Part shown: one piece after another, positions 1 through 11,950 of the stretch
Layout of the letters: the number at the start of each line of letters is the position of its first letter
Numbering within the stretch: the stretch's first letter is position 1
Assembly: GCA_024278315.1 (NCBI GenBank)
Contig: JAJRTL010000144.1
Location: 1-40,935 of the forward strand
Direction: 5' to 3'
Source of the DNA: Planctomycetota bacterium
GTDB taxonomy: Bacteria > Planctomycetota > UBA1135 > GCA-002748355
DNA length: 40,935 nucleotides
Made by a program: the position numbers and the translations under genes
The notes under the pieces: generated by a model
The model's input: only the letters and a program-made list of their open reading frames with translations
What the model was told of the DNA's origin: nothing
The model's database searches: none

Positions 1-405
1 ACCGCTCTCAAGGTCGCAAAGGGCAAGACGAAGTACAAGCTGCTGCGCTTCCAGGCCCAGGCTCTTGGAGGATGGTCCGAAATCGGCAAGAACGGCCGCA
101 TCAAGATCATCTACGGGCGCGGGGAGAAGGGCGACTACAAGTAGGCCTACGAGATCCTGTTCCTGAAGTACGCCGTCTACATCAAACGCGTCAAAAACTA
201 CAAGTACAGCTTCGAGTGGTACCGCTGGTACTTCGAGTGCATGGACCTGGCACTCAAGGCCGTCAAGGATAACTCGGACTTCAATGAGACCGCCAAGAAG
301 TTCTGGCGCATCGCCAAGAGCCACAACGATTTCCAGACGCTCAAGGACATGGGCAAGAAGGGTGAGAATCTCTACAAGCTCTTCGACAAGCGTTTCCAGC
401 GCTAG
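1..405 (+). pseudogene. 3' part of an unrecognised gene with an in-frame TAG
   Basis: Reading frame 1 is open from the window edge and ends at TAG 403-405. It is interrupted once by TAG at 142-144. The residues after the stop look like normal protein: basic and aromatic-rich, probably helical, ending LYKLFDKRFQR. The frame is therefore probably one gene with a single nonsense change; CAG to TAG (Gln) is the simplest explanation. I do not recognise the family. The gene ends 17 bases before the start of the exported TPR protein and probably belongs to the same operon. A sequencing error, a recent pseudogene and stop-codon readthrough all fit. The 5' end lies outside the window. Confidence 0.6.
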
Positions 406-422
406 ACAGGAGGAAGAGCCAC

Positions 423-1640
423 ATGAATCTCAAGACGAATGAATCCACCGAAAGCACAGTTTCGATGAATACGACGACCCGCGCTTCCAAGCCTCCCCGC
501 TCCCTCCATGCTCGCTCGCTGGGTCTGCTCGCCGTGATCGGCCTGGCGCTCATGACACCGAGCGCCACAGCACAGAGAAAGTCCAAGAGTGCCGGAAGTG
601 ACAAACTCACGACGATTCAAGGCAAGGTCCTTCGTCGACTCGAGGTCATCCAGGAGGGCTTCACGGAGATCACCTACAAGAGGGGCAAGACGGAGCACAA
701 GATCCCGACCAAAGACGTTTTGAAGATCGAATGGGGCAATCTGCCCGAGTCCTGGCAACGGGCACAGGTGGCCGCGGAGAAGGGCGATTGGGAGAAGGCT
801 GCCAGCCTCTACCAGGACACGGCCAATGCTTCCTCACGAACCGCACTCGTAGCCGCCGCTGGTTTCCTTGCCTTGGAGGCCCTGCTGAAGACCAGCGCCG
901 GTGATGCGTCCAAGGCTGACATGTCCGCAACGGCAGCCAAGAGTTGGCTGGCCGCCCACACCGATCACCGAAAGACCCCCGAGGTCATGGGCATGCTGGG
1001 CAAACTCTACCTCCTCGCGGCCAAGCCCAAGGAGGCCCTGAAGGCCTACAAGGATCTCGAGGCCGCGGTCGACTCCAAGAACCTGCCGACCACCTGGCTC
1101 GCCCGCGCTCGATATGGTCAGGCCATGGCTCTCACCGACGAGGGGGAGTTCGAGAAGGCCCGCCAGGCCTACAGTTCCGCGGCGGCCACCCTCCGTGGAC
1201 AGGATTTGAGCAAGGATCCAGCAGCCGCAGCGGTGTTCATTGCTGCCGAAGTCGGCAAAGGTGAGACCTTGATGGCGGAGAAGAAGTTCGACGTCGCCCT
1301 CAACAACTTCCGGGGCATGGAGATGACCGCCGGCAAGAATGCTGCGCTCAAGACCGCAGCCGTATGCGGTCAGGCCGCTGCGATGGTCGAAATCGGCATC
1401 GCGAGCAAGGATCACAAGAAGCTCCGGACCGCCCAGGACCGCCTGGCCAGGGTCTCCGCCACGGACCTCCTGGACGGAGACAGTAGTGCCAAGGCCCTCT
1501 TCTACCTGGGTAAGGTCATCCGGGCCCTGGGAAAGGATGAGCCGGATTCGGGCCGCAAGGCCAAGCGCTACTTCGAGTCTGTCATTCAAGGCTACCCGGA
1601 CAGCACCTGGGCCCTGGAGGCACAAAGAGCCCTCAAGTAG
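423..1640 (+). CDS. Exported tetratricopeptide-repeat protein
   Basis: This 405-residue protein has a long basic N-terminus, a hydrophobic core at about residues 33-45 and an Ala-Thr-Ala site near residue 50, so it is probably secreted or periplasmic. Most of the rest is helical repeats with TPR character, for example EKGDWEKAASLYQDTA, AKPKEALKAYKDLEA and EGEFEKARQAYSSAA. The C-terminal GKDEPDSGRKAKRYFESV stretch resembles tol-pal system YbgF-type or outer-membrane assembly TPR ends. A strong AGGAGG site about 8 bases upstream supports the ATG at 423, although an ATG at 465 would also leave a signal peptide. It lies 290 bases upstream of exbB. By analogy with TPR partners of Tol/Exb systems it may be a periplasmic scaffold for the motor. 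That role is inference. Confidence 0.75.
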   Translation: MNLKTNESTESTVSMNTTTRASKPPRSLHARSLGLLAVIGLALMTPSATAQRKSKSAGSDKLTTIQGKVLRRLEVIQEGFTEITYKRGKTEHKIPTKDVLKIEWGNLPESWQRAQVAAEKGDWEKAASLYQDTANASSRTALVAAAGFLALEALLKTSAGDASKADMSATAAKSWLAAHTDHRKTPEVMGMLGKLYLLAAKPKEALKAYKDLEAAVDSKNLPTTWLARARYGQAMALTDEGEFEKARQAYSSAAATLRGQDLSKDPAAAAVFIAAEVGKGETLMAEKKFDVALNNFRGMEMTAGKNAALKTAAVCGQAAAMVEIGIASKDHKKLRTAQDRLARVSATDLLDGDSSAKALFYLGKVIRALGKDEPDSGRKAKRYFESVIQGYPDSTWALEAQRALK

Positions 1641-1930
1641 CCGTTCCGTGCAAACAAGCCTTTCTTCGGAGGCCCTTATCCTGCAGAATCTTTGGTCGGA
1701 ACGCCTTGCCCCGGGCCCGCAGAGAGCATCGGATTCGCGTTCCCAGCTCTCCTGCACGACCGTAGACCATCGACAGCAAAGATTTTCGACGCGTTCTCCG
1801 TGAACCCACCCCGGGGCAGGAGACGTTCCCAACCATTCCAGATCCTGATAGATCGGGAAGGTCCAAGGCCAGCTACGCCCCCCCCCGCGTCAGCGTGCCC
1901 CTTCCTTCCCCAAGCAGTCCTCGATCAGTC
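1641..1930 (+). other. 290-base gap upstream of exbB
   Basis: No convincing gene is visible here. The gap contains a run of nine C at 1878-1886 and no clear Shine-Dalgarno sequence before the exbB start. It may hold the exbB promoter, but I cannot place -35 and -10 elements. Confidence 0.4.
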
Positions 1931-2659
1931 ATGAAGCTCAATCTCAAGAACTCAGGCCTCGCCTTCCTTGCTCTTCTCGTCACGACCTCCGTGAGCTTTG
2001 CCGCTCCGATGCAGGCGGGGACCGAATCCAACGAAGTCCCGGGCTTCATGGAGGACGTCTTCAACAACGCTGGCCTCATCGGTTGGCTCATCGTCCTGGT
2101 GTCGGTCATCGCTGCGGCTCTCGCCATCGAGAACTTCATGACTCTCAAGCGCGACAAGCTGGCCCCCCCCCACCTGATCGACGAGATCGAAGCCCTTCTG
2201 GACGAAGAGAAGTTCCAGGAAGCCGTCGAGGTCTGCGAAGCAGAGCCCTGCTACATGACCGATATCGTGGGCGCGGGTCTCACCAAGCTGGGGCATAACT
2301 TCGATACGATTCAAGTGGCCTACGAGGAGATGCACGAGGAGCACGACATCAAGCTCAACGCCAAGGTTGGGTGGCTGTCCCTCATCGCTGCCGTTGCCCC
2401 CATGATGGGTCTGCTCGGAACCGTGAATGGTATGATCGCCACCTTCGGTGAGATCGCCAGCAAACCCAGCGTCAAGCCGAACGACCTGGCCGGCGGTATC
2501 AAGGGCGCCCTGGTCACGACCCTGCTGGGTCTGACCGTGGCCATCCCGGTGACCGCCCTCTACGTCTACTTCAAGAACAAGACGCAGATGCTCAGCCTCG
2601 AAGTCGGCGCCATCGTCGAAGAGCTCTTCGAGCGCTTCCGCCAGCGTCCCGGGGCCTAG
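1931..2659 (+). CDS. exbB: MotA/TolQ/ExbB family proton channel subunit with a signal peptide
   Basis: This 242-residue inner-membrane protein matches the MotA/TolQ/ExbB family. Residues 1-21 form a cleavable signal peptide ending SFA. A first membrane helix follows (LIGWLIVLVSVIAAALAI), then a cytoplasmic loop, then the family signature: a helix pair with GWLSLIAAVAPMMGLLGTV and GALVTTLLGLTVAIPVTAL. The signal peptide before the first helix is typical of ExbB-like proteins from Planctomycetota and some other phyla, and absent from E. coli ExbB. An in-frame GTG at 1895 would extend the protein, but ATG 1931 puts the signal peptide at the N-terminus and is preferred. ExbB pentamers conduct protons with ExbD to power envelope machines. 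Two exbD genes follow directly. A nine-C run (2163-2171) lies inside the coding sequence, in frame. Confidence 0.9.
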   Translation: MKLNLKNSGLAFLALLVTTSVSFAAPMQAGTESNEVPGFMEDVFNNAGLIGWLIVLVSVIAAALAIENFMTLKRDKLAPPHLIDEIEALLDEEKFQEAVEVCEAEPCYMTDIVGAGLTKLGHNFDTIQVAYEEMHEEHDIKLNAKVGWLSLIAAVAPMMGLLGTVNGMIATFGEIASKPSVKPNDLAGGIKGALVTTLLGLTVAIPVTALYVYFKNKTQMLSLEVGAIVEELFERFRQRPGA

Positions 2660-2681
2660 GATCCTGGAGGCTCGGTCCGGG

Positions 2682-2705
2682 AGTCTTGGTCTATGAACCG
2701 AGACT
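2682..2705 (+). other. Hairpin between exbB and exbD1
   Basis: Arms 2682-2690 and 2697-2705 form a 9-bp stem with one G-U pair and a 6-base loop. No T-run follows. It could be a processing site or weak attenuator that sets the exbB:exbD ratio. The function is inference. Confidence 0.4.
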
Positions 2706-2776
2706 TCTGCCATACGATATAGAGAGCAGGTTCCGGGGCATCCCGGATAGGCAACTCACCAGCTAGGAGCCATACG

Positions 2777-3301
2777 ATGGCAAGACGGCGCAAGAGCAAG
2801 TCCGAAGAAGTCAAGATGGACATGACGCCGATGATCGACTGCGTGTTTCAGTTGATCATCTTCTTCTTCCTCATCATCGACCTGCAGAACCAGGATCTCG
2901 AGGATCTGGTTCTGCCAAGGTCGGACAAAGCGGTCCCGGACGAGCCGCCCGAAGGTGTCCGCCCGATCATCAACGTCCACCAGAATGGGCGCATGGTCTA
3001 CAAGCTGCATGACTACTACACGCCGGACGCTCCCAAGAACTTCGTGAAGCTGGACAAGCTCCTCTACGGATTCGCCCACACGATCATGAAGAGGGAGATG
3101 GATCCGGTCGTCAAGAAGATGATCCCCTACGACCCCCTGCTGATTCGCGCTGACGAGTTCACGGAGATGCACTACATCGCCAAGATCATGGAACGATGCG
3201 GTGATCAGAAGGTGATGATCTGGAAGATCGAGCTGGCCCTGGGCGAGCGCAAGGACGGCAAGACCGCTGCCGACTTCATCAAGACTGGATCCAAGAAGTA
3301 G
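2777..3301 (+). CDS. exbD: ExbD/TolR biopolymer transport protein, copy 1
   Basis: This 174-residue protein has the ExbD/TolR plan: a short basic cytoplasmic N-terminus (MARRRKSKSEE), one membrane helix starting DMTPMIDCVFQLIIFFFL, and a periplasmic domain. The Asp in the PMID motif, near residue 19, is the conserved proton-carrying residue of the family. The start is supported by a CTAGGAG site about 8 bases upstream. It lies 117 bases after exbB and 8 bases before a second exbD. It would pair with ExbB as a proton-driven motor. The periplasmic part differs strongly from copy 2, so the two probably contact different partners or form a hetero-dimer. Confidence 0.9.
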   Translation: MARRRKSKSEEVKMDMTPMIDCVFQLIIFFFLIIDLQNQDLEDLVLPRSDKAVPDEPPEGVRPIINVHQNGRMVYKLHDYYTPDAPKNFVKLDKLLYGFAHTIMKREMDPVVKKMIPYDPLLIRADEFTEMHYIAKIMERCGDQKVMIWKIELALGERKDGKTAADFIKTGSKK

Positions 3302-3309
3302 GAGACGAC

Positions 3310-3834
3310 ATGGCCGGCAGAAAGAAAAAGCCAAAGGAACTGGCAGAGACGGACATGGACCTGACGCCGATGATCGACGTCGTGTTCCTCCTCCTGATCT
3401 TCTTCCTTTGCATGGAGTTCAAGACGCTCGAGAGCAAGCTTTCGGCCAATCTCCCGAAGGACGTGGGCGTCAATACGACCGAAGCCGTCCCCATGGAGAA
3501 ACTCGATATCCGCATCGAGCAGGTCCGATGGGGTCAGGAGGTCAAGGACCCGAATGGCCGAACCCGCTACAACCTGGTGGGACACAAGGTCAAGTGGTAC
3601 GTCGGTCCGCAGCCTTTCCGGGACAAGGAGAGCTTCTATCGCCTGTTGCAGCGTGAGGCCAAGATCCTTCAGTTCAACGACACCACGCAAAAAAACGAAC
3701 CTAAGCCGATCACCATCAAGACGGGGCTGGGTGTGACCTACGGCGACGTGACCTGGGTCATCGACATGGCCAAGTACGCGGGCTTCGAGACGATCACCTT
3801 CGGTGGCGGTGGCGGAGCCAGAAAGAAGAAGTAG
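3310..3834 (+). CDS. exbD: ExbD/TolR biopolymer transport protein, copy 2
   Basis: This second ExbD/TolR subunit also has 174 residues. It has a lysine-rich N-terminus (MAGRKKKPKEL), one helix beginning MDLTPMIDVVFLLLIFFL with the conserved Asp, and a periplasmic domain containing FKTLESKLSANLPKDVG and VGHKVKWYVGPQPF. The C-terminus is a glycine run followed by lysines (GGGGGARKKK), which is unusual for ExbD. A TAGGAG site precedes the ATG, 8 bases after the stop of copy 1, so the two are probably translated together. A decayed relative of this same copy lies about 100 bases downstream (3930-4215). Two ExbD paralogues behind one ExbB are common in planctomycete-like clusters. Confidence 0.9.
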   Translation: MAGRKKKPKELAETDMDLTPMIDVVFLLLIFFLCMEFKTLESKLSANLPKDVGVNTTEAVPMEKLDIRIEQVRWGQEVKDPNGRTRYNLVGHKVKWYVGPQPFRDKESFYRLLQREAKILQFNDTTQKNEPKPITIKTGLGVTYGDVTWVIDMAKYAGFETITFGGGGGARKKK

Positions 3835-3850
3835 AGGACTGCAGGACCTT

Positions 3851-3920
3851 TGCCGCTGGTATCTGGCCAGCGGCAAGAAACGGAGCCGCCCCCCGCTCGT
3901 CGGGGGGCGGCTCCGTTTCT
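3851..3920 (+). terminator. Two tandem perfect hairpins, probable terminator of the exb operon
   Basis: The first stem pairs 3851-3859 with 3867-3875 (9 bp, 7-base loop). Immediately after it, 3876-3895 pairs perfectly with 3901-3920: 20 bp, mostly G-C, around a 5-base CTCGT loop. It begins 17 bases after the stop of the second exbD. The stem ends in TTTCT, but no longer U-tract follows. It could stop transcription from either side or protect a 3' end. Confidence 0.75.
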
Positions 3921-3929
3921 GCGTACAGG

Positions 3930-4215
3930 AGCTTGAACCCGATGCCCTGCCTTTTCCTCTGCCTCGACTTCAAGACGCTGGAGAGCAAACATTCGGCCAA
4001 TCTCCCCAGAAACGTCGGTCCCGGGACCCAGGTCCCCACGCCACTGGACAATCTCGACATCCGGATCGAGCAGGTCGCCTGGGGACAGGAGATCCCGGAC
4101 ATCCACGGTCGGGAGCGCGTCCAGCTCGTGGGACACAAGGTGAGATGGTATGTCGGCCCTCAGCCTTTCTCCGACGCATCGAGCTTCCATCGCTTGCTGC
4201 AGAAGGAGGCAGGCG
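3930..4215 (+). pseudogene. Decayed third copy of exbD
   Basis: Translated from about 3930, this stretch aligns with the second ExbD over roughly 90 residues. FKTLESKHSANLPRNVG matches FKTLESKLSANLPKDVG, LDIRIEQVAWGQE matches LDIRIEQVRWGQE, and VGHKVRWYVGPQPF matches VGHKVKWYVGPQPF. The lead-in SLNPM matches DLTPM of the true gene, but the next eight or so residues are gone. These are the conserved Asp and most of the membrane helix. Similarity stops after LLQKEAG at about 4215, so the C-terminal third is also missing. The frame stays open beyond that (to 4457), but with no recognisable protein. It therefore looks like a tandem duplicate that lost its membrane anchor and its end, and it should be non-functional as a proton channel. 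A soluble periplasmic remnant is unlikely because no signal peptide is seen. Confidence 0.8.
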
Positions 4216-4627
4216 CAAATCCACGGGCAGGTAGCTGTCGATGGCCGAAAAACCTGCCGATTTCTCCTGAATTGATGCCAGAAACCGAGCCCCACCAGGG
4301 TGAGGATCCAAGCCCGGTTCGGAACCGGTGGGATTCCCCTCCGGTTGACAGAAAGCCCTTTCCCCCAAGGGCTTCCTTGGCTATCTTCGTCGCCTTCCTG
4401 GAGGCCGCCCCGCCGCTTGGAAGAACACGGATCGCTACCCGCCTGGCAAGGGATTGACCTGGCTACTGGCGGGACCCGGTCCACTGCCCCGAGCTGTTTG
4501 CCCTGCAAGCGCACTATTCCTCCCGAAGCGTCCTCGTTCGGCCCATGGGGCCAGGGATGTTTCGGAATTCGAAGACGAGGTGAGGACGCTCCTCCCCCTC
4601 GTTGTCCCTGAATCTCAAGGCGGAAAG
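4216..4627 (+). other. Structured 412-base gap before the secretin gene
   Basis: I see no convincing gene here. Several stem-loops are visible: 4226-4232 with 4252-4258 (7 bp); 4314-4320 with 4322-4328 (7 bp, or 4323-4328 pairing instead with 4341-4346); and 4353-4360 with 4367-4374 (8 bp, 6-base loop). The alternative pairing around 4314-4346 resembles a switch, but I recognise no riboswitch family. An in-frame upstream start at 4454 would extend the secretin by 58 residues and is rejected because it would bury the signal peptide. Confidence 0.4.
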
Positions 4628-7270
4628 ATGTCCTTGGACTTTTCCCGTTTCCTTTCGGGCTCACTTGTCGGGCTCTCTCTCGTTTTCTTCTCGTGTTCCT
4701 CAGCTGACCAGGGCAACTCTGGCGCAGGAGGGGAGAGCACACCGACTCAAGATCAGGGCGGAGAGGGGTCTCACGACTCCTCCCAGGACCCCATGAGCGG
4801 TGGGCAAGCCACTCTCGAGGCGCAGCGGGTCAACCTGCTGATCGACAGATACACGCGCCAAGCAAAGAAGCTCATCTCTGAGATGCGCTACGAGGATGCG
4901 AAGGTCATCCTCCTCAAGGCCTCGGATGTCGACCCTGACAACAGCGAAGTGCAGAAGCTTCTGGGCGTTACCCTGCGGCAGCTGGGCGAACGGCAGGGTG
5001 ATGTCACGAGCTACCGGGACTACATGGCCCAGCAGCTCGAAGTCCGGATCCAGAAGGACAAGGCGGAAGCCCGGCGGTTCATCGGGGACGCCAAGAGGGC
5101 TCGCGAGGAGGGCAACTACGATCGCGCGATCGATCTCCTCAAAGAGGTCCGGATCAAGGTCGAGGTCGGCCGCAACATCGACTGGGAAGAGATCGCTCCC
5201 ACTTCCGAGGACCTGCTGACACGCTACCAGACCGAGCGTGACCAGGCGTATCGCGAGACCCAGACCCGCGTCGAGCGCGAGGCCTTCCGGCGCATGCAGG
5301 AGCGGACTCGCGAAGCCGAGGAGAGGATCGATCGCCAGACGAACGACCTCCTGGCCAAGGGCACCAAGTCCTTCGAGAACCGCCAATACGACCGCGCCCT
5401 CGAGTATGCGCAGCAAGCCCTCCGCCTGCGTCCCATGAACGAGATTGCCCGGCAGTTGATGTCGGCCAGCGACAAGGCCCTCCGGGATGTCGTCAACGAC
5501 AACTACATCGCCAACAAGGCCAAGGAGTTCAAGAAGTACCAGGCCTTCCTGCAGGAACAGAAGACGACCTACACGGACATCCTGACCGGCCCGGACATGA
5601 ACTACTGGATGAAGATCTCGGCGCTCCGCGATGCGGACATGGAAGCTGAGTTCGGAATCACCCCCAAGACCGCCGAGACGATCGCACTCGAGAAGACTCT
5701 CCGCACGACCTATTTGCCCAAGGGCATGACCTTCGAAGAGGATACCGGTTACAGCGAGGTCATCACCGAGGTCAACAGTGTCACGGGCGTCAATGTCCTG
5801 AGCAGTCCCGAGGCCAAAGCGGCCATCGAGGACAATGGCTACACCTTGACCCTGACCCTTGGCGCCCCGATCTCCCTCCGCAACTTCCTCAACGTCCTCG
5901 TGGAGAAGACCGAGGGAGCCCTGGCCTACATGATCCAGGATGGAACCGTCATCCTCACGACGAAGGCCAAGTCTCTCGGCAAGCCGACTCTCATTGTCCA
6001 CGGGATCGCCGACCTCACTGTCCAGATCACCAACTTCACCGCTCCGATCATCCGCGACATCCCGCGTCCGGGCGCGGATGACGAAGAGGAAGCGCGTGGA
6101 GGTGGAGAAGAAGAAGAGCCCATCACCTTCGTCGACCCAAGCCAGCTCGAAGAGCTGGTCCGGAAGCACGTTTCTCCGGGTTCGTGGGATGCAGATGGCG
6201 TTCAGATCGAGGCGACTCAGTCACAGCTGATCGTTCAGCACACCCCAGAGGTCCAGCGCCAGGTGCGCACCTTCCTGAACGATCTGCGCAAGTTCTCGAC
6301 GAGCCTCGTGGCCATCGAATCCAAGTTCCTCAACGTCGACCGCAACTTCATGGAGCAGATCGGCGTGGACTGGCGCGGGCTGGGCGGCTCCAACGCAAAG
6401 GGCCGCGAGGCACAACTGGATGACCTGACCAATGGCCCACCGGACAACACCTCGCGGGGACTGGACAACAACGGAGTCCAGAGTCCGTCAGGAGCTCCGG
6501 TCGCTGGTGTCTACTACGATGACGGCCTCGACGGAGATTTCCGTGGACGCACCGAGAACTTCTTCACGACGGGACTCAGCGAGGTCCTCACCGGTCGCGG
6601 TGGAGCAACGATCGGCCTGACGATCCTCGGTGACACGGACCTGAACCTCCTGATTCGCGCCATCACCAAGAATGAGGACATCCAGGAAGTCGATTCCCAG
6701 ATGCTCACCGTCCTCAACGGTCAGCGCGCCAACGTCTCGGTCATCGTCCAGACGGCCTTCGTGCAGGACTTCAACGTCGAGGTCGCCCAGGCGGCCTTCA
6801 TCGCCGACCCCGAGGTCAACATCATCCAGGACGGAGTCGTCCTGGACGTGCAACCCACGATCTCCTACGACCGCAAGTACATCACCCTCGAACTCCAGCC
6901 CACCGTGGCTGAGCTCGTCCGGCCGATCCCGACCTTCACGACCTCCCTCTCCGGCACGACGCTGCCGGTCACCATCCAGTTCCCGCAGATGACGGTGCAG
7001 AGCGCCGCCACGAGCGTCAAGGTTCCCTACGGTGGCTCGGTCCTGATTGGTGGCCTCAACCGCGTCCTCAATCGCGAGCGTCGCGCAGAAGTGCCATGGC
7101 TCGCCGATCTGCCTCTGATCGGCTTCCTCTTCAAGCAGGAAGGCGTCGCCGACGAGAACAGCAGCCTCATGGTCATGGTTCGTGCCTCGATCTTCAATGT
7201 CAAGGACGTGATGGACAAGCGCCAGCGCGAGTGGGAGCTGTATAATCTCCGCAACGTCAGCAGCCGCTGA
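4628..7270 (+). CDS. TPR-secretin, GspD/PilQ-like outer-membrane pore lipoprotein
   Basis: This 880-residue protein starts with a signal peptide (MSLDFSRFLSGSLVGLSLVF) ending FFSC, a plausible but imperfect lipobox with Cys23. An AAGGCGG site precedes the ATG. Helical TPR-like repeats occupy about residues 65-330 (for example near 69 and 242). Secretin N-domain-like segments follow at about 380-560, broken by an acidic low-complexity stretch near 482-500 (DDEEEARGGGEEEE). The secretin core runs from about 680 to 850 and holds the family's VPWLADLPLIGFLF signature near 822. Secretins form large outer-membrane rings in type II/III secretion and type IV pilus systems. No GspE, F or G-type gene lies nearby; instead the neighbours are ExbB/ExbD and a TPR protein, which suggests a pore energised by the proton motive force. 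The substrate is unknown. Confidence 0.88.
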   Translation: MSLDFSRFLSGSLVGLSLVFFSCSSADQGNSGAGGESTPTQDQGGEGSHDSSQDPMSGGQATLEAQRVNLLIDRYTRQAKKLISEMRYEDAKVILLKASDVDPDNSEVQKLLGVTLRQLGERQGDVTSYRDYMAQQLEVRIQKDKAEARRFIGDAKRAREEGNYDRAIDLLKEVRIKVEVGRNIDWEEIAPTSEDLLTRYQTERDQAYRETQTRVEREAFRRMQERTREAEERIDRQTNDLLAKGTKSFENRQYDRALEYAQQALRLRPMNEIARQLMSASDKALRDVVNDNYIANKAKEFKKYQAFLQEQKTTYTDILTGPDMNYWMKISALRDADMEAEFGITPKTAETIALEKTLRTTYLPKGMTFEEDTGYSEVITEVNSVTGVNVLSSPEAKAAIEDNGYTLTLTLGAPISLRNFLNVLVEKTEGALAYMIQDGTVILTTKAKSLGKPTLIVHGIADLTVQITNFTAPIIRDIPRPGADDEEEARGGGEEEEPITFVDPSQLEELVRKHVSPGSWDADGVQIEATQSQLIVQHTPEVQRQVRTFLNDLRKFSTSLVAIESKFLNVDRNFMEQIGVDWRGLGGSNAKGREAQLDDLTNGPPDNTSRGLDNNGVQSPSGAPVAGVYYDDGLDGDFRGRTENFFTTGLSEVLTGRGGATIGLTILGDTDLNLLIRAITKNEDIQEVDSQMLTVLNGQRANVSVIVQTAFVQDFNVEVAQAAFIADPEVNIIQDGVVLDVQPTISYDRKYITLELQPTVAELVRPIPTFTTSLSGTTLPVTIQFPQMTVQSAATSVKVPYGGSVLIGGLNRVLNRERRAEVPWLADLPLIGFLFKQEGVADENSSLMVMVRASIFNVKDVMDKRQREWELYNLRNVSSR

Positions 7271-7365: not shown

Positions 7366-8091
7366 ATGAGCCGACCACTCGACGCGATCTTCTTCGACAT
7401 CGATGACACGCTCTTCTCCACGTCGGTATTCGCGGAGAAAGCGAGACGGAATGCCGTCGATGCCATGATCCAACACGGGCTTCAGGTCGATCGAGCCGAA
7501 TGTCTGAGGGAGCTGGAGGAGGTCATCCAGGAGTTCTCTTCCAACCACGGCAAGCACTTCGACAACCTCTTGGCACGCTTGCCAGAGGGTTCCTTGGAAG
7601 GGCTCAACCCCGATGTGATCGTGGCCTGCGGAATGATGGCCTATCACGACACGAAGTTTCGCGACCTCAGGGTCTACGAGGACGTCTACGAGGTCCTGGA
7701 GGCGCTCTCAGGGACGAACATGATTCGCGGCATCATCTCCGCAGGTCTCACCAAGAAGCAGGCAGAGAAGATCCTGCGGCTCCACATCTACGATTTCCTG
7801 AGCCCCCATGCAATCTTCATCACGGAGCAGATCGGAATCAGCAAACCCAACCCCAAGCTCTATGCCCGGGTCCTCGAGTCCCTGGGACTGGAGGCTGAAC
7901 GCACGATGTACGTCGGGGACAATCCGTCCCACGACGTAGACCCTTGCAACGAACTGGGCATGATCACGGTGTTCAACCGCCGCTCTGGAAGACACAGCCG
8001 TCAGAAGGGCCAAACGGAGCCCGACTATACGATCAAGGACTTCTACGAGCTGCGCGAGATCCTTCGCCGCGACTTCGACGTGATGATCTGA
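7366..8091 (+). CDS. HAD-superfamily phosphatase (subfamily IA, TIGR02253-like)
   Basis: This 241-residue soluble HAD hydrolase has all four motifs. Motif I is DIDDT at residues 11-15 (nucleophile Asp11, acid/base Asp13). Motif II is IISAGLT near 120, the motif III lysine is in ISKPNPKLY near 162, and motif IV is VGDNPSHDVDP near 184-193. The opening, with AEKARRNAVDAMI soon after motif I, resembles the TIGR02253 group. The start at 7366 puts motif I at the usual distance from the N-terminus; an upstream in-frame extension to 7300 would run through the hairpin and is rejected. The gene is 11 bases upstream of the molybdenum hydroxylase genes, so it is probably co-transcribed with them. The substrate cannot be read from sequence; a phosphorylated metabolite or cofactor intermediate used by the hydroxylase pathway is possible. 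Confidence 0.85.
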   Translation: MSRPLDAIFFDIDDTLFSTSVFAEKARRNAVDAMIQHGLQVDRAECLRELEEVIQEFSSNHGKHFDNLLARLPEGSLEGLNPDVIVACGMMAYHDTKFRDLRVYEDVYEVLEALSGTNMIRGIISAGLTKKQAEKILRLHIYDFLSPHAIFITEQIGISKPNPKLYARVLESLGLEAERTMYVGDNPSHDVDPCNELGMITVFNRRSGRHSRQKGQTEPDYTIKDFYELREILRRDFDVMI

Positions 8092-8102
8092 GCGACAGGC
8101 CA

Positions 8103-8594
8103 ATGAAATCCACCGGCAAACGAATCCTCAAACTCAGTATCAATGGCACGGTGCACGAATGTGCTGCCGAGCCTCAGGCGCTCCTCCTCGACGTGCTGCG
8201 CAATGAGCTCGGCCTGTTCGGCACCAAGCGCGGTTGCGACATGGGCACCTGCGGCTGCTGCAATGTGCTTGTGGACGGCCAGGTCCAGATGAGCTGCCTG
8301 CTCCTGGCCCACGACATGACAGGCAAGGAGATCGAGACGATCGAAGGCCTTTTCGACGTCGGGGATCCGAGAGGACTCCACCCTTTGCAGAGGGCATGGG
8401 CAGAGCATGGCGGCAGCCAATGCGGTTTCTGCACGCCCGGGTTCGTCATGACAGCCAAGGCACTCCTCACAGAGGAGCCTGATCCCAGCGAAGAGAGGAT
8501 CCGCGAGGCGCTGTCCGGCAATGTCTGCCGATGCACCGGATACAAAAAGATCGTCGAGGCCGTGCAGAGTGCCGCAGCGGAGATCCGATCATGA
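8103..8594 (+). CDS. hcrC: 4-hydroxybenzoyl-CoA reductase-like gamma subunit, two [2Fe-2S] clusters
   Basis: This 163-residue iron-sulfur subunit belongs to the xanthine oxidase family. The plant-ferredoxin-type cluster is ligated by Cys45, Cys50, Cys53 and Cys65 (RGCDMGTCGCC), with an extra Cys52 beside them. The second cluster uses Cys107, Cys110, Cys142 and Cys144 (QCGFCTPG and VCRCTGY). It carries electrons between the FAD subunit and the molybdenum centre. A GACAGG site lies just before ATG 8103. The stop overlaps the large-subunit start by four bases (ATGA), a sign of translational coupling. The subfamily assignment rests mainly on the FAD subunit two genes downstream; alone, this protein would be called a generic (2Fe-2S)-binding hydroxylase subunit. 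Confidence 0.9.
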   Translation: MKSTGKRILKLSINGTVHECAAEPQALLLDVLRNELGLFGTKRGCDMGTCGCCNVLVDGQVQMSCLLLAHDMTGKEIETIEGLFDVGDPRGLHPLQRAWAEHGGSQCGFCTPGFVMTAKALLTEEPDPSEERIREALSGNVCRCTGYKKIVEAVQSAAAEIRS

Positions 8595-10948
8595 GCCAGA
8601 ACGACCTTCCTCCGCATGCCCACGAACACCCACGCCAGAAGCATGGGCTCATCGGCAAGCGCCTCCCGCTGGTCGACGCATGGCGCAAGGCTGCTGGCCA
8701 GGCGGTCTACACCGACGACATCCACCTGCCCGGTGAGCTGGTCGGCAAGATCCTGCGCTCCCCGCACGCACACGCCAAGATCCTCTCCATCGACACGAGC
8801 GAAGCCCTGGCCATGGACGGGGTGCATTGCACCCTGATTGGCAAGGAGGCACCCAACAGCTTCGGTGTGCTCCCTGTGAGCCAGGACGAGACGGCCCTGG
8901 CCGTGGACAAGGTCATCTACCTCGGCGAGAACCTGGCCGCCGTGGCTGCGGACACCGAGGAGATTGCCCTCGAGGCTCTTTCAAGGATCAAGGTCGAGTA
9001 CGAGGTCCTGGACTCCTTTCTGGACATGGAGCAGAGTTGCCGCGAGATCAGTGACGATCTGAAGATTCACTCAAAGGTCGTGGGGAATACGAACATCCAC
9101 AAGGAGGTCCACCAGGATTTCGGGGATGTCGACAAGGCCATCGCAGAAGCCGCCTGGACCAAGACGCAACGATTCCTGATGCCGGGTGTGACACACGCGT
9201 TCACCGAACCGATGTGCACTCTTGCCTGGTTCAATGCCGATGAGCGACTGACCCTCTGGTCCGCGCAGCAGGTTCCCCACTACCTCCAGCGAGCCCTCGC
9301 GAAAGTGCTGGAGATGGACATGCATCGCATCCGTGTCGTCCGGCCGACGGTTGGCGGAGGTTTCGGCGGCAAGTCCGACCCCTTCCCCCACGAGATGGTC
9401 GCAGCACTCCTCTCCCGCAAGTGCAAGAAGCCGGTGCGTATCCTCTTCGACCGTGAAGAGGTCTTCTACAGCAATCACGGACGTCATCCGTCGAAGATCC
9501 AGATGACCTTGGCCATCGACAAGGATCACAAGATCTCGGGCATGGATCTGGATTGCCTCATCGACGGAGGGGCGTCGGGCAGCTTCGGCGTGGTGACCAC
9601 CTACTACAATGGCGTCCTCGCCAATGGCCCCTACCGGCTGCCCAACTTCCGCTACCACGGGAGACGCGTCTACAGCAACCGTCCCCCCTCGGGCGCCATG
9701 CGCGGGCATGGAGCCGTCAATACGCGATTCGCCTACGAAGTCCTGATCGATGAGGCCTGCGCAGACCTCGGCGAGGACCCCAGGGACTTCCGACTGAACA
9801 ACGCCCTTGAGGCCTACACCAAGACCATCAATGAGTTTCGCATCACGACCAACGGAGTCGTCGAGTGCATCGAGCGTGCGACCGAAGCCGCCGGCTGGAA
9901 GGACAAGTTTGGGAAGCTCCCCCACGGTCACGGAATCGGCATGGCTTGCGGATTCTACATCTCAGGTTCGGCCCTCCCGATCCACTGGGATGGCATTCCA
10001 CAATCTACCGTCCATCTCAAGATCGACATCGATGGCGGCGTGACCATCCATTCGCTGGCTGCCGAGATCGGTCAGGGGTCGGACACGATGTTGGCCCAGA
10101 TCGTTGCGGATGTGCTTGGCCTGCCCATCCACTACTGTCGCGTCTTCAGCGAAGACACGGACACCGCTCCACTGGATCTGGGATCCTACAGTTCGCGCGT
10201 CACGTTCATGGCTGGCAACGCGGCACGCATGGCAGCCGAGAACATGCGCAAACTGCTGGTGGCCGCTGCTGCGGATCTGACGGGCTATCCCTCAGAGCAC
10301 TTCGTCATGGAGGAGGCGCAGGTCGTAAACGCCACGATGCCCGAAGTCAGGGTCGACTACATGGAAGCGCTGAAGCGCGCCATGAAGGACTGCGGTGCCC
10401 TCCAGAGCAGCGGGGCCTATCAGGCGCCACCGATGGGCGGCAAGTTCAAGGGTGCGGCGGCGGGACTGTCCCCCACCTACAGCTTCCAGTCCTTCGTCGT
10501 CGAGCTCTCGGTGGATCCCCTGACCTGCAAGCCCAAGCTCCATGAGATCTGGGCCGCGCACGATTGCGGGAGAGCTCTCAATCCCCTGGCGGTCGAAGCG
10601 CAGATCGAGGGATCGGTGCATATGGGGCTCGGCCAGGTGCTCTGCGAATCCTTCGACTACAACAAGGCGAACGTCCTGAACCCCAACTTCCTCGACTACA
10701 GGACCCTGTCTCCGACCGAAACTCCTGCGATCCATCCCATCCTCGTGGAGACCATGGATCCCGAAGGTCCTTTTGGGGCCAAGGAGTGCGGCGAAGGCCC
10801 ATTGCTCCCCATCCTGCCTGCCGTCGCCAACGCGCTGCACGACGCCATCGGCATCCGCTTCTACGAGATGCCCATCACGGCCGACAAGATCTACCGGGCG
10901 GTCCAGAAACAGAAGAAGCTGGCCCGACGAAATCTTGTGCAGGGCTGA
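8591..10948 (+). CDS. hcrA: 4-hydroxybenzoyl-CoA reductase-like alpha subunit, molybdopterin-binding
   Basis: This 785-residue catalytic subunit is of the xanthine oxidase family. The N-terminal a/b hammerhead domain (KAAGQAVYTDDIHLPGELVG) covers about residues 30-150. Molybdenum-cofactor-binding segments follow: GGGFGGK at about 255-261, PPSGAMRGHG ending near 374, IGQGSDTM near 493-500, and GAKECGEG near 730, which carries the conserved active-site Glu of the family. As far as I can recall the family, the overall sequence resembles 4-hydroxybenzoyl-CoA reductase alpha subunits more than xanthine dehydrogenases, for example AMRGHG and DPEGPFGAKE. Such enzymes remove the phenolic hydroxyl of 4-hydroxybenzoyl-CoA to give benzoyl-CoA. 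Start 8591 overlaps the previous stop. The cofactor is supplied by the Moa/Moe pathway; a moaA gene lies 26 kb away. Confidence 0.88.
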   Translation: MSQNDLPPHAHEHPRQKHGLIGKRLPLVDAWRKAAGQAVYTDDIHLPGELVGKILRSPHAHAKILSIDTSEALAMDGVHCTLIGKEAPNSFGVLPVSQDETALAVDKVIYLGENLAAVAADTEEIALEALSRIKVEYEVLDSFLDMEQSCREISDDLKIHSKVVGNTNIHKEVHQDFGDVDKAIAEAAWTKTQRFLMPGVTHAFTEPMCTLAWFNADERLTLWSAQQVPHYLQRALAKVLEMDMHRIRVVRPTVGGGFGGKSDPFPHEMVAALLSRKCKKPVRILFDREEVFYSNHGRHPSKIQMTLAIDKDHKISGMDLDCLIDGGASGSFGVVTTYYNGVLANGPYRLPNFRYHGRRVYSNRPPSGAMRGHGAVNTRFAYEVLIDEACADLGEDPRDFRLNNALEAYTKTINEFRITTNGVVECIERATEAAGWKDKFGKLPHGHGIGMACGFYISGSALPIHWDGIPQSTVHLKIDIDGGVTIHSLAAEIGQGSDTMLAQIVADVLGLPIHYCRVFSEDTDTAPLDLGSYSSRVTFMAGNAARMAAENMRKLLVAAAADLTGYPSEHFVMEEAQVVNATMPEVRVDYMEALKRAMKDCGALQSSGAYQAPPMGGKFKGAAAGLSPTYSFQSFVVELSVDPLTCKPKLHEIWAAHDCGRALNPLAVEAQIEGSVHMGLGQVLCESFDYNKANVLNPNFLDYRTLSPTETPAIHPILVETMDPEGPFGAKECGEGPLLPILPAVANALHDAIGIRFYEMPITADKIYRAVQKQKKLARRNLVQG

Positions 10949-10966
10949 ATCCAACCGAGAGACCAG

Positions 10967-11950
10967 ATGATCCTCCCCACATTCGAGCTACATCAACCCA
11001 GCAGTCTCGCCGAGCTTCGCGCGATCTGCACCGGACTCGAGACGACCGGTGAGAGCTACGACTTCATGGCGGGCGGAACCGATGTGCTGCCCAATTACAA
11101 GAACCGCATCAACGCTCGCTCACACGTAATCTCGCTGTCCAAGCTCGAGGGCTGCAACACGATCGCCGTGGATCGTATCGGTGCCTTGGCGAGCCTCACG
11201 GACATCGCAAGGCATCCCGAGCTGGGCCGACACTACCCCGGTCTCGTCGAAGCGGCCGGACAGGTCAGTTCGCCCCCCCTACGCAACATGGGAACGCTGG
11301 GTGGCAACCTGCTTCTGGATACACGCTGCTACTACCTCAATCAGAGTGAGTTCTGGCGCGCCTCCAAGGGCTACTGCATGAAGGCCGATGGAGATGTCTG
11401 CCTGGTGGTCCCCCAGAAGGAGATCTGCTACGCCACCTACTCGGGAGATCTGGCACCCGTGCTCCTGACCTTGGATGCGACACTCCACTTCCATGACATC
11501 CACGGTCAGGACGAAGCAGCTGAGCGCTCCGTACCGATCCGGGAGTTCTATGCCCTGGATGGCATCCAACGCTTCCACAAGGCACCCGGCGAGCTGCTGA
11601 CCGCGATCAGCATCCCCGAGAATGCACGGCAGCTTCGAACCGGATACCACAAACTCCGTGTCCGGGACACGATCGAGTATCCCGTCATGGGAGTCGCCAT
11701 GGCCCTGTCCAGCAAGGCAGGCAAGATCGAGAGATTGGAGCTTGCCGTCACCGGAGCCGAAGCCATCCCGATCCACTACGGAGACCTGGGATTCACCGGA
11801 AGACAGATCGATGACGGCTGCGCCGACGAACTGCGGGCCGCACTCTGCTCTCGCGTGCAGACGTATCGCAACGTGCCCTTCCCACCCTCCTATCGAAAGG
11901 CCATGGCCGGGGAGTTCGCAGGCGACCTCCTGATGAAGTTGGGAGACTGA
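10967..11950 (+). CDS. hcrB: 4-hydroxybenzoyl-CoA reductase-like beta subunit, FAD plus [4Fe-4S]
   Basis: This 327-residue FAD-binding subunit is of the CoxM/HcrB family. FAD motifs are AGGTDVLPN at residues 35-43 and NMGTLGGNL at 107-115. Between the FAD lobes there is a cysteine-rich insert with Cys121, Cys137, Cys145 and Cys154. The spacings of 16, 8 and 9 are the same as those of the extra [4Fe-4S] cluster in Thauera aromatica 4-hydroxybenzoyl-CoA reductase beta subunit (Cys122, 138, 146, 155). Ordinary xanthine dehydrogenases and CO dehydrogenases lack this insert. The insert is what lets HCR pass low-potential electrons inward for reductive dehydroxylation. The gene is 18 bases after hcrA and ends 15 bases from the convergent kinase gene. 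A relative acting on another CoA thioester cannot be excluded. Confidence 0.9.
   Translation: MILPTFELHQPSSLAELRAICTGLETTGESYDFMAGGTDVLPNYKNRINARSHVISLSKLEGCNTIAVDRIGALASLTDIARHPELGRHYPGLVEAAGQVSSPPLRNMGTLGGNLLLDTRCYYLNQSEFWRASKGYCMKADGDVCLVVPQKEICYATYSGDLAPVLLTLDATLHFHDIHGQDEAAERSVPIREFYALDGIQRFHKAPGELLTAISIPENARQLRTGYHKLRVRDTIEYPVMGVAMALSSKAGKIERLELAVTGAEAIPIHYGDLGFTGRQIDDGCADELRAALCSRVQTYRNVPFPPSYRKAMAGEFAGDLLMKLGD

Follow-up and report, generated by a model that had tools for sequence, protein, structure and literature searches.

An ExbB-ExbD1-ExbD2 motor and twin TPR-secretins form a conserved gene arrangement in Planctomycetota

We analyzed a 40,935-nucleotide stretch of DNA from a Planctomycetota bacterium (the window; contig JAJRTL010000144.1, here C518, of assembly GCA_024278315.1, here G000; 5.16 Mb, 518 contigs, 84.8% complete), in which genes for tetratricopeptide repeat (TPR) proteins, an ExbB/ExbD-type motor and a TPR-containing secretin lie together (Table 1). 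Comparison with related genomes showed that the pairing of this motor with twin TPR-secretins is a phylum-wide and conserved gene arrangement, a conclusion that is well supported. The full cassette has the order secretin A, big TPR, small TPR, ExbB, ExbD1, ExbD2, secretin B. This arrangement suggests an outer-membrane gate that is worked by the proton gradient.

When the secretin was used as a query against 100 relatives, a match was obtained in 100 of 100. Clustering of the open reading frames (ORFs) in 20 fetched regions gave the recurrent order UDG, secretin A, big TPR, small TPR, ExbB, ExbD1, ExbD2, secretin B and the HAD hydrolase. Among the same-order loci whose upstream sequence spans 7 kb or more (n = 64), ExbB lay beside secretin B in 52, both ExbDs with no called ExbB in three and neither in nine, giving a motor beside secretin B in 55/64. 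Outside the order, ExbB was found close to one of the two secretins, on a shared contig, in at least 41 genomes, counted by hand from positions. The best 80 matches of a wider contig search included no named phylum other than Planctomycetota. The cassette was present in two cultured relatives, Pla163 (CP036290.1) and Poly30 (CP036434.1). Because the gene arrangement recurs across the phylum, it is not due to chance. A preliminary description, made from the letters of the window alone, had suggested that the module may recur in related genomes without a described function. Blocks of TPR-secretin and ExbB-ExbD-ExbD lacking GspE were indeed found across the order and beyond, and we found no description of this secretin link. 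Further, none of the secretin's relatives examined was part of a type II or pilus operon, and the exbB-exbD-exbD link was conserved.

The same description had placed an exported TPR protein, ExbB, two ExbDs and a TPR-secretin in one same-strand block, and the ORFs and domain matches agree with it. The block is larger than was noted, since it also includes the end of big TPR, a partial third copy of ExbD2 and a second secretin on another contig, C140. Secretin A of this genome is located on C140 beside the 5' part of big TPR, and is hidden from the window by a contig break; judging from gene order in relatives, C140 and C518 would be adjacent. Big TPR is an exported protein of ~950 aa in relatives. 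The translation of window positions 1-405 aligned to residues 845-970 of the 978-aa big TPR in locus L053, and the 5' part on C140 (L018 12685-14745) aligned to residues 30-686, with a gap of ~160 aa between the contig ends. At window positions 142-144 big TPR contains an in-frame TAG, where the L053 relative has Glu; this could reflect a misassembly close to the contig end or a genuine nonsense mutation. Small TPR, for which clustering of the fetched loci gave a group of 13 members, matched TIGR02795 (tol_pal_ybgF) at 1e-6, below the cut-off.

Table 1. Features of the cassette and its surroundings. Positions are those of the window, except in the last row, where they are those of the named loci.
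Feature	Position	Strand	Evidence
Big TPR, 3' end (cut by contig end)	1-405	+	Frame-1 translation aligned to L053 relative
Small TPR, exported protein with signal peptide and YbgF/BamD-like TPRs	423-1640	+	TPR_2, 1.7e-7
ExbB/TolQ-type proton channel subunit	1895-2659	+	PF01618, 2.7e-25
ExbD1, first ExbD/TolR-type subunit	2777-3301	+	PF02472, 3.3e-13
ExbD2, second and distinct ExbD/TolR-type subunit	3310-3834	+	PF02472, 7.4e-14
Two strong hairpins directly 3' of ExbD2	3839-3920	+	Minimum free energy -66.3 kcal/mol for 3835-3930
Third-ExbD remnant (ExbD2 copy)	about 3951-4211	+	Aligned without gaps to ExbD2 residues 32-117 (score 316)
Secretin B, probable lipoprotein with TPR region, N0 and N1-like domains and secretin domain	4628-7270	+	PF00263, 9.1e-24
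HAD-family hydrolase, conserved downstream neighbour	7366-8091	+	HAD_2, 1.7e-18
Two-transmembrane protein downstream of sister motor blocks	L240 9470-10486; L242 9210-10346; L245 5163-6188; L252 5567-6532; L255 10432-11424		No confident Pfam family

Secretins A and B are paralogues derived from an ancient duplication. In a tree built from 95 sequences of A and B and an outgroup of four further secretins of this genome (ORFs covering the secretin matches), clade A (n = 45, support 0.928) and clade B (n = 50, support 0.971) were separated from the outgroup by a long shared branch. Each genome had one A and one B, even where the two were unlinked (L198-L203). TPRs and a lipobox were present in both secretins, which are probably lipoproteins, as the preliminary description had supposed for secretin B. 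A lipobox scan was positive for 87/99 secretin B ORFs and 45/69 secretin A ORFs, and several of the listed misses were ORFs with over-extended or truncated starts. In secretin B, a hydrophobic stretch precedes Cys23, which was invariant in 19/19 aligned sequences. The signal sequence and lipobox come after 4628, so the ATG at that position, and not the TTG at 4454, is the likely start codon.

Residues 63-310 (approximately) of secretin B are helical, consistent with TPRs. The full-length structural model was poor (pLDDT 66), and a crop of residues 340-880 with a deeper alignment (64 sequences) reached a pLDDT of 82.8 and a pTM of 0.61. The best solved match to the cropped model was BfpB (9u5s, 8.1e-22), and PilQ, InvG and GspD were also matched. 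Secretin B thus models as an N0-N1-secretin architecture closest to BfpB and PilQ. A long conserved insertion with a DDG-DGD-RGRTEN-like motif occupies about residues 571-660 in the secretin domain, and a motif resembling it was also seen in secretin A of L053.

The proton-path residues of the motor are intact. The Thr/Gly motifs of ExbB, whose nearest solved relatives are TolQ and ExbB, were conserved in 96/97 loci. The TP-x-x-D motif, which contains the membrane Asp, was found in ExbD1 of 98/99 loci and in ExbD2 of 91/99, with the Asp still present in each of four variants that were inspected (L057, L118, L134 and L195). ExbD1 and ExbD2 fell into separate orthologue groups in the ORF clustering. 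The third-ExbD remnant has neither the N-terminal part bearing the TPMID motif nor the C-terminus, and a Pfam search of it returned no match. Additional ExbD copies were seen in L055, L107, L129, L193, L254 and L255.

We propose, as the best single explanation but at about even odds, that the cassette encodes a trans-envelope machine which is driven by protons and acts on a gate of two secretins. In the inner membrane, ExbB and a hetero-pair of ExbD1 and ExbD2 would form a 5:2-type motor. The exported TPR proteins would serve as the periplasmic link, replacing TonB or TolA, and the outer-membrane end would be a twin gate in which secretins A and B each carry their own pilotin-like TPR domain. 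The motor would then open the gate or move a substrate through it. In favour of this proposal, most loci of the order have the motor and TPR genes between the two secretins, each genome has one A and one B, both with lipobox and TPRs, the proton-path residues are conserved and no GspE-like ORF is linked. We infer the physical coupling, the bridging by TPR proteins, the partnership of A and B, the direction and the substrate. The pore driven by the proton motive force that the preliminary description had suggested is reasonable, in that the motor residues are intact and the link to exb genes is conserved, but the coupling of motor and secretins is read from gene order only and the motor lies elsewhere in some lineages. 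A wider claim is that a secretin channel energised via ExbB-ExbD1-ExbD2 and TPR linkers, with its paralogue pair and distinct from ATPase-driven systems, is an ancestral or nearly ancestral trait across a large part of Planctomycetota; this is possible, and we put it forward tentatively. Known secretins, to our knowledge, either partner cytoplasmic ATPases or take part in the assembly of phages. If the proposal is true, a secretin pair worked by an Exb motor would be a new way of powering outer-membrane transport.

Several findings weigh against the proposed machine. In the window, ExbD2 and secretin B are separated by 793 bp and the strong hairpins, which may end or attenuate transcription ahead of secretin B; because of them, secretin B may have its own promoter in this locus. 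The terminator scan did not report these hairpins, and the promoter scan found no promoter-like sites. The neighbouring UDG and HAD genes are syntenic as well, so gene order is conserved for other reasons too and synteny alone is no proof of coupling. G124 (single contig, 6.36 Mb), which seems to be Planctomycetaceae-like, had motor blocks and a weak secretin match (E 2e-23). Further, eight genomes of the order (G013, G017, G033, G048, G051, G054, G090 and G098) keep the secretin pair with the motor elsewhere, as an ExbB-ExbD1-ExbD2 block at another locus, usually with big TPR.

We considered whether the unlinked blocks are simple relocations, and rejected this because they form a separate clade and most have an extra downstream gene. 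In a tree of concatenated motor proteins, the blocks of the eight genomes and five from other families made up one clade (n = 13, support 0.976). Most of these blocks are followed by a gene for a ~330-residue protein with two transmembrane segments, likely one at each end, for which no match was found in secretin-linked loci at E 1e-3. From these sequence comparisons, the unlinked blocks appear to be a sister motor and not moved copies. Among 18 genomes of the order, 10 had the secretin-linked motor only and eight the sister motor only, with none having both and none having neither, a split that favours the proposed machine; for G012, G014 and G021, the top candidates alone were scored in this count.

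These findings also bear on a different explanation, in which TPR-TPR-ExbB-ExbD-ExbD is a motor of general use to the envelope, either for stabilisation as by Tol-Pal or for surface motion of the Agl type, and the secretin pair belongs to another system next to it. The motor block of G124 without the pair and the sister motors at other loci would fit such a role, as would the YbgF/CpoB-like TPRs of small TPR and the resemblance to AglRQS, likewise one ExbB and two ExbDs that work together with exported TPR proteins (PMC3169522). No MotA/ExbB-family protein other than the linked ExbB was found in nine genomes, which is housekeeping-like. We nevertheless regard a general motor as rather unlikely, since in most of the phylum sampled the motor lies between both secretins and not merely beside one. 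Further, in two non-order lineages (L181 and L207-L209) a small TPR gene lies between the secretins although ExbB is elsewhere, which fits the expectation for an adaptor. Of the cassette proteins of the window, none was recognised as Pal, TolB or TolA; the rest of the genome was not searched for them.

The ExbB-ExbD-ExbD set might instead be an ordinary Ton motor for TonB and TonB-dependent receptors encoded elsewhere. G011 and G022, two of the nine genomes above, which have TonB and receptor genes and the linked ExbB as their only one, favour this reading and temper that of a proton-driven secretin pore; the linked motor may also serve TonB. However, we give an ordinary Ton motor little credence. 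In G061 no TonB and no receptor were found, and one ExbB and secretin B are kept. G000 itself has a further ExbB/ExbD on C173, and its TonB genes are beside receptor genes on other contigs (C66 and C329). No TonB_C match was obtained among the cassette proteins of the window, and Ton systems do not include a pair of distinct ExbDs or two TPR genes. The assemblies are only ~84-95% complete, which also weakens this reading. It is similarly improbable, in our estimate, that the secretin pair serves a type II or type IV pilus system as its outer-membrane channel, with the ATPase and pseudopilins encoded in other parts of the genome and the Exb genes incidental. In favour of this are the fold, which is nearest to BfpB and PilQ, and the T2SSE ATPase genes that were present elsewhere in 40/40 genomes checked; the latter also count against an Exb-driven gate, since the secretins might use a remote ATPase. 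Nonetheless, no T2SSE ATPase was found on the window contig and no GspE-like ORF in about 140 loci, which bears out the earlier remark that no secretion ATPase is nearby. No pseudopilin-like motif was detected in the same loci by a scan without a positive control. The T2SSE genes of G000 lie elsewhere in the assembly, and three of the contigs concerned have a secretin of their own; the A/B pair forms a separate long-branched clade.

Compared with BfpB, PilQ and GspD, secretin B has the same N0-N1-secretin fold, BfpB being the best match. PilQ and RcpA have pilotins that are TPR lipoproteins (PilF and TadD, respectively). Here, in contrast, the secretin itself bears the TPRs and the lipid anchor, the paralogues occur as a pair and no ATPase is linked. 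One secretin/TPR-pilotin pair, RcpA-TadD, is described in PMC10499894. The motor shares its families and proton-path motifs with TonB-ExbB-ExbD and TolQ-TolR-TolA-Pal, but the cassette has two ExbDs and no TonB/TolA-like transducer, and the secretins are the candidate outer-membrane partner. The closest working analogue would be AglR-AglQ-AglS of Myxococcus xanthus, a proton-driven trans-envelope machine with one ExbB-type and two different ExbD-type subunits and exported TPR proteins (PMC3169522, PMC3858216); our system is known from genes and is likened to it by description. The outer-membrane parts of AglRQS with Glt/Nfs are not secretins, and the gene sets differ. Protein secretion across the outer membrane via Oar, powered by ExbB/ExbD/TonB, provides a precedent for Exb-driven secretion (PMC6434023), although the Oar channel is a TonB-dependent receptor whereas the candidate channel here is a secretin.

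The motor half is already known in outline. Clusters of a TPR gene, one tolQ-like gene, two different tolR-like genes and a vWA transducer gene were reported in 2025 for Planctomycetes and relatives of the PVC group (PMC12204202). The TPR, TolQ-like and paired unlike TolR-like genes are common to those clusters and to our cassette, in which two secretins flank the motor and no vWA transducer was recognised. Neither the scanned cassette proteins nor ten proteins that follow other motor blocks included the vWA transducer expected from that work. The word "secretin" is absent from PMC12204202, and we found no paper in the open-licence literature that joins these secretins with ExbB-ExbD-ExbD. Thus, the link between secretins and motor is apparently undescribed.

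The transfer of large molecules across the outer membrane of planctomycetes has been stated to be unsolved (PMC5394234). The cassette is unlikely to explain uptake in Planctopirus, because the Planctomycetaceae-like genome checked (G124) was without the secretin pair. The cultured carriers Pla163 and Poly30 make the role of the cassette a question open to experiment.

Other genes accompany the cassette. The HAD gene followed secretin B at a distance of no more than 2.5 kb in 60/66 loci of the order, and its product is probably not part of the machine. In many non-order loci, a sulfatase-family protein, some with TPRs, is encoded between ExbD2 and secretin B (L126 7515-9425, L186 10902-12866 and L188 10586-12730, with matches in 22 other loci); we rejected it as a core part because it is missing from the window locus. 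On the 3' side of the HAD gene, window positions 7944-11950 contain a set judged by eye to be molybdenum hydroxylase-like, with 2Fe-2S, large and FAD subunits.

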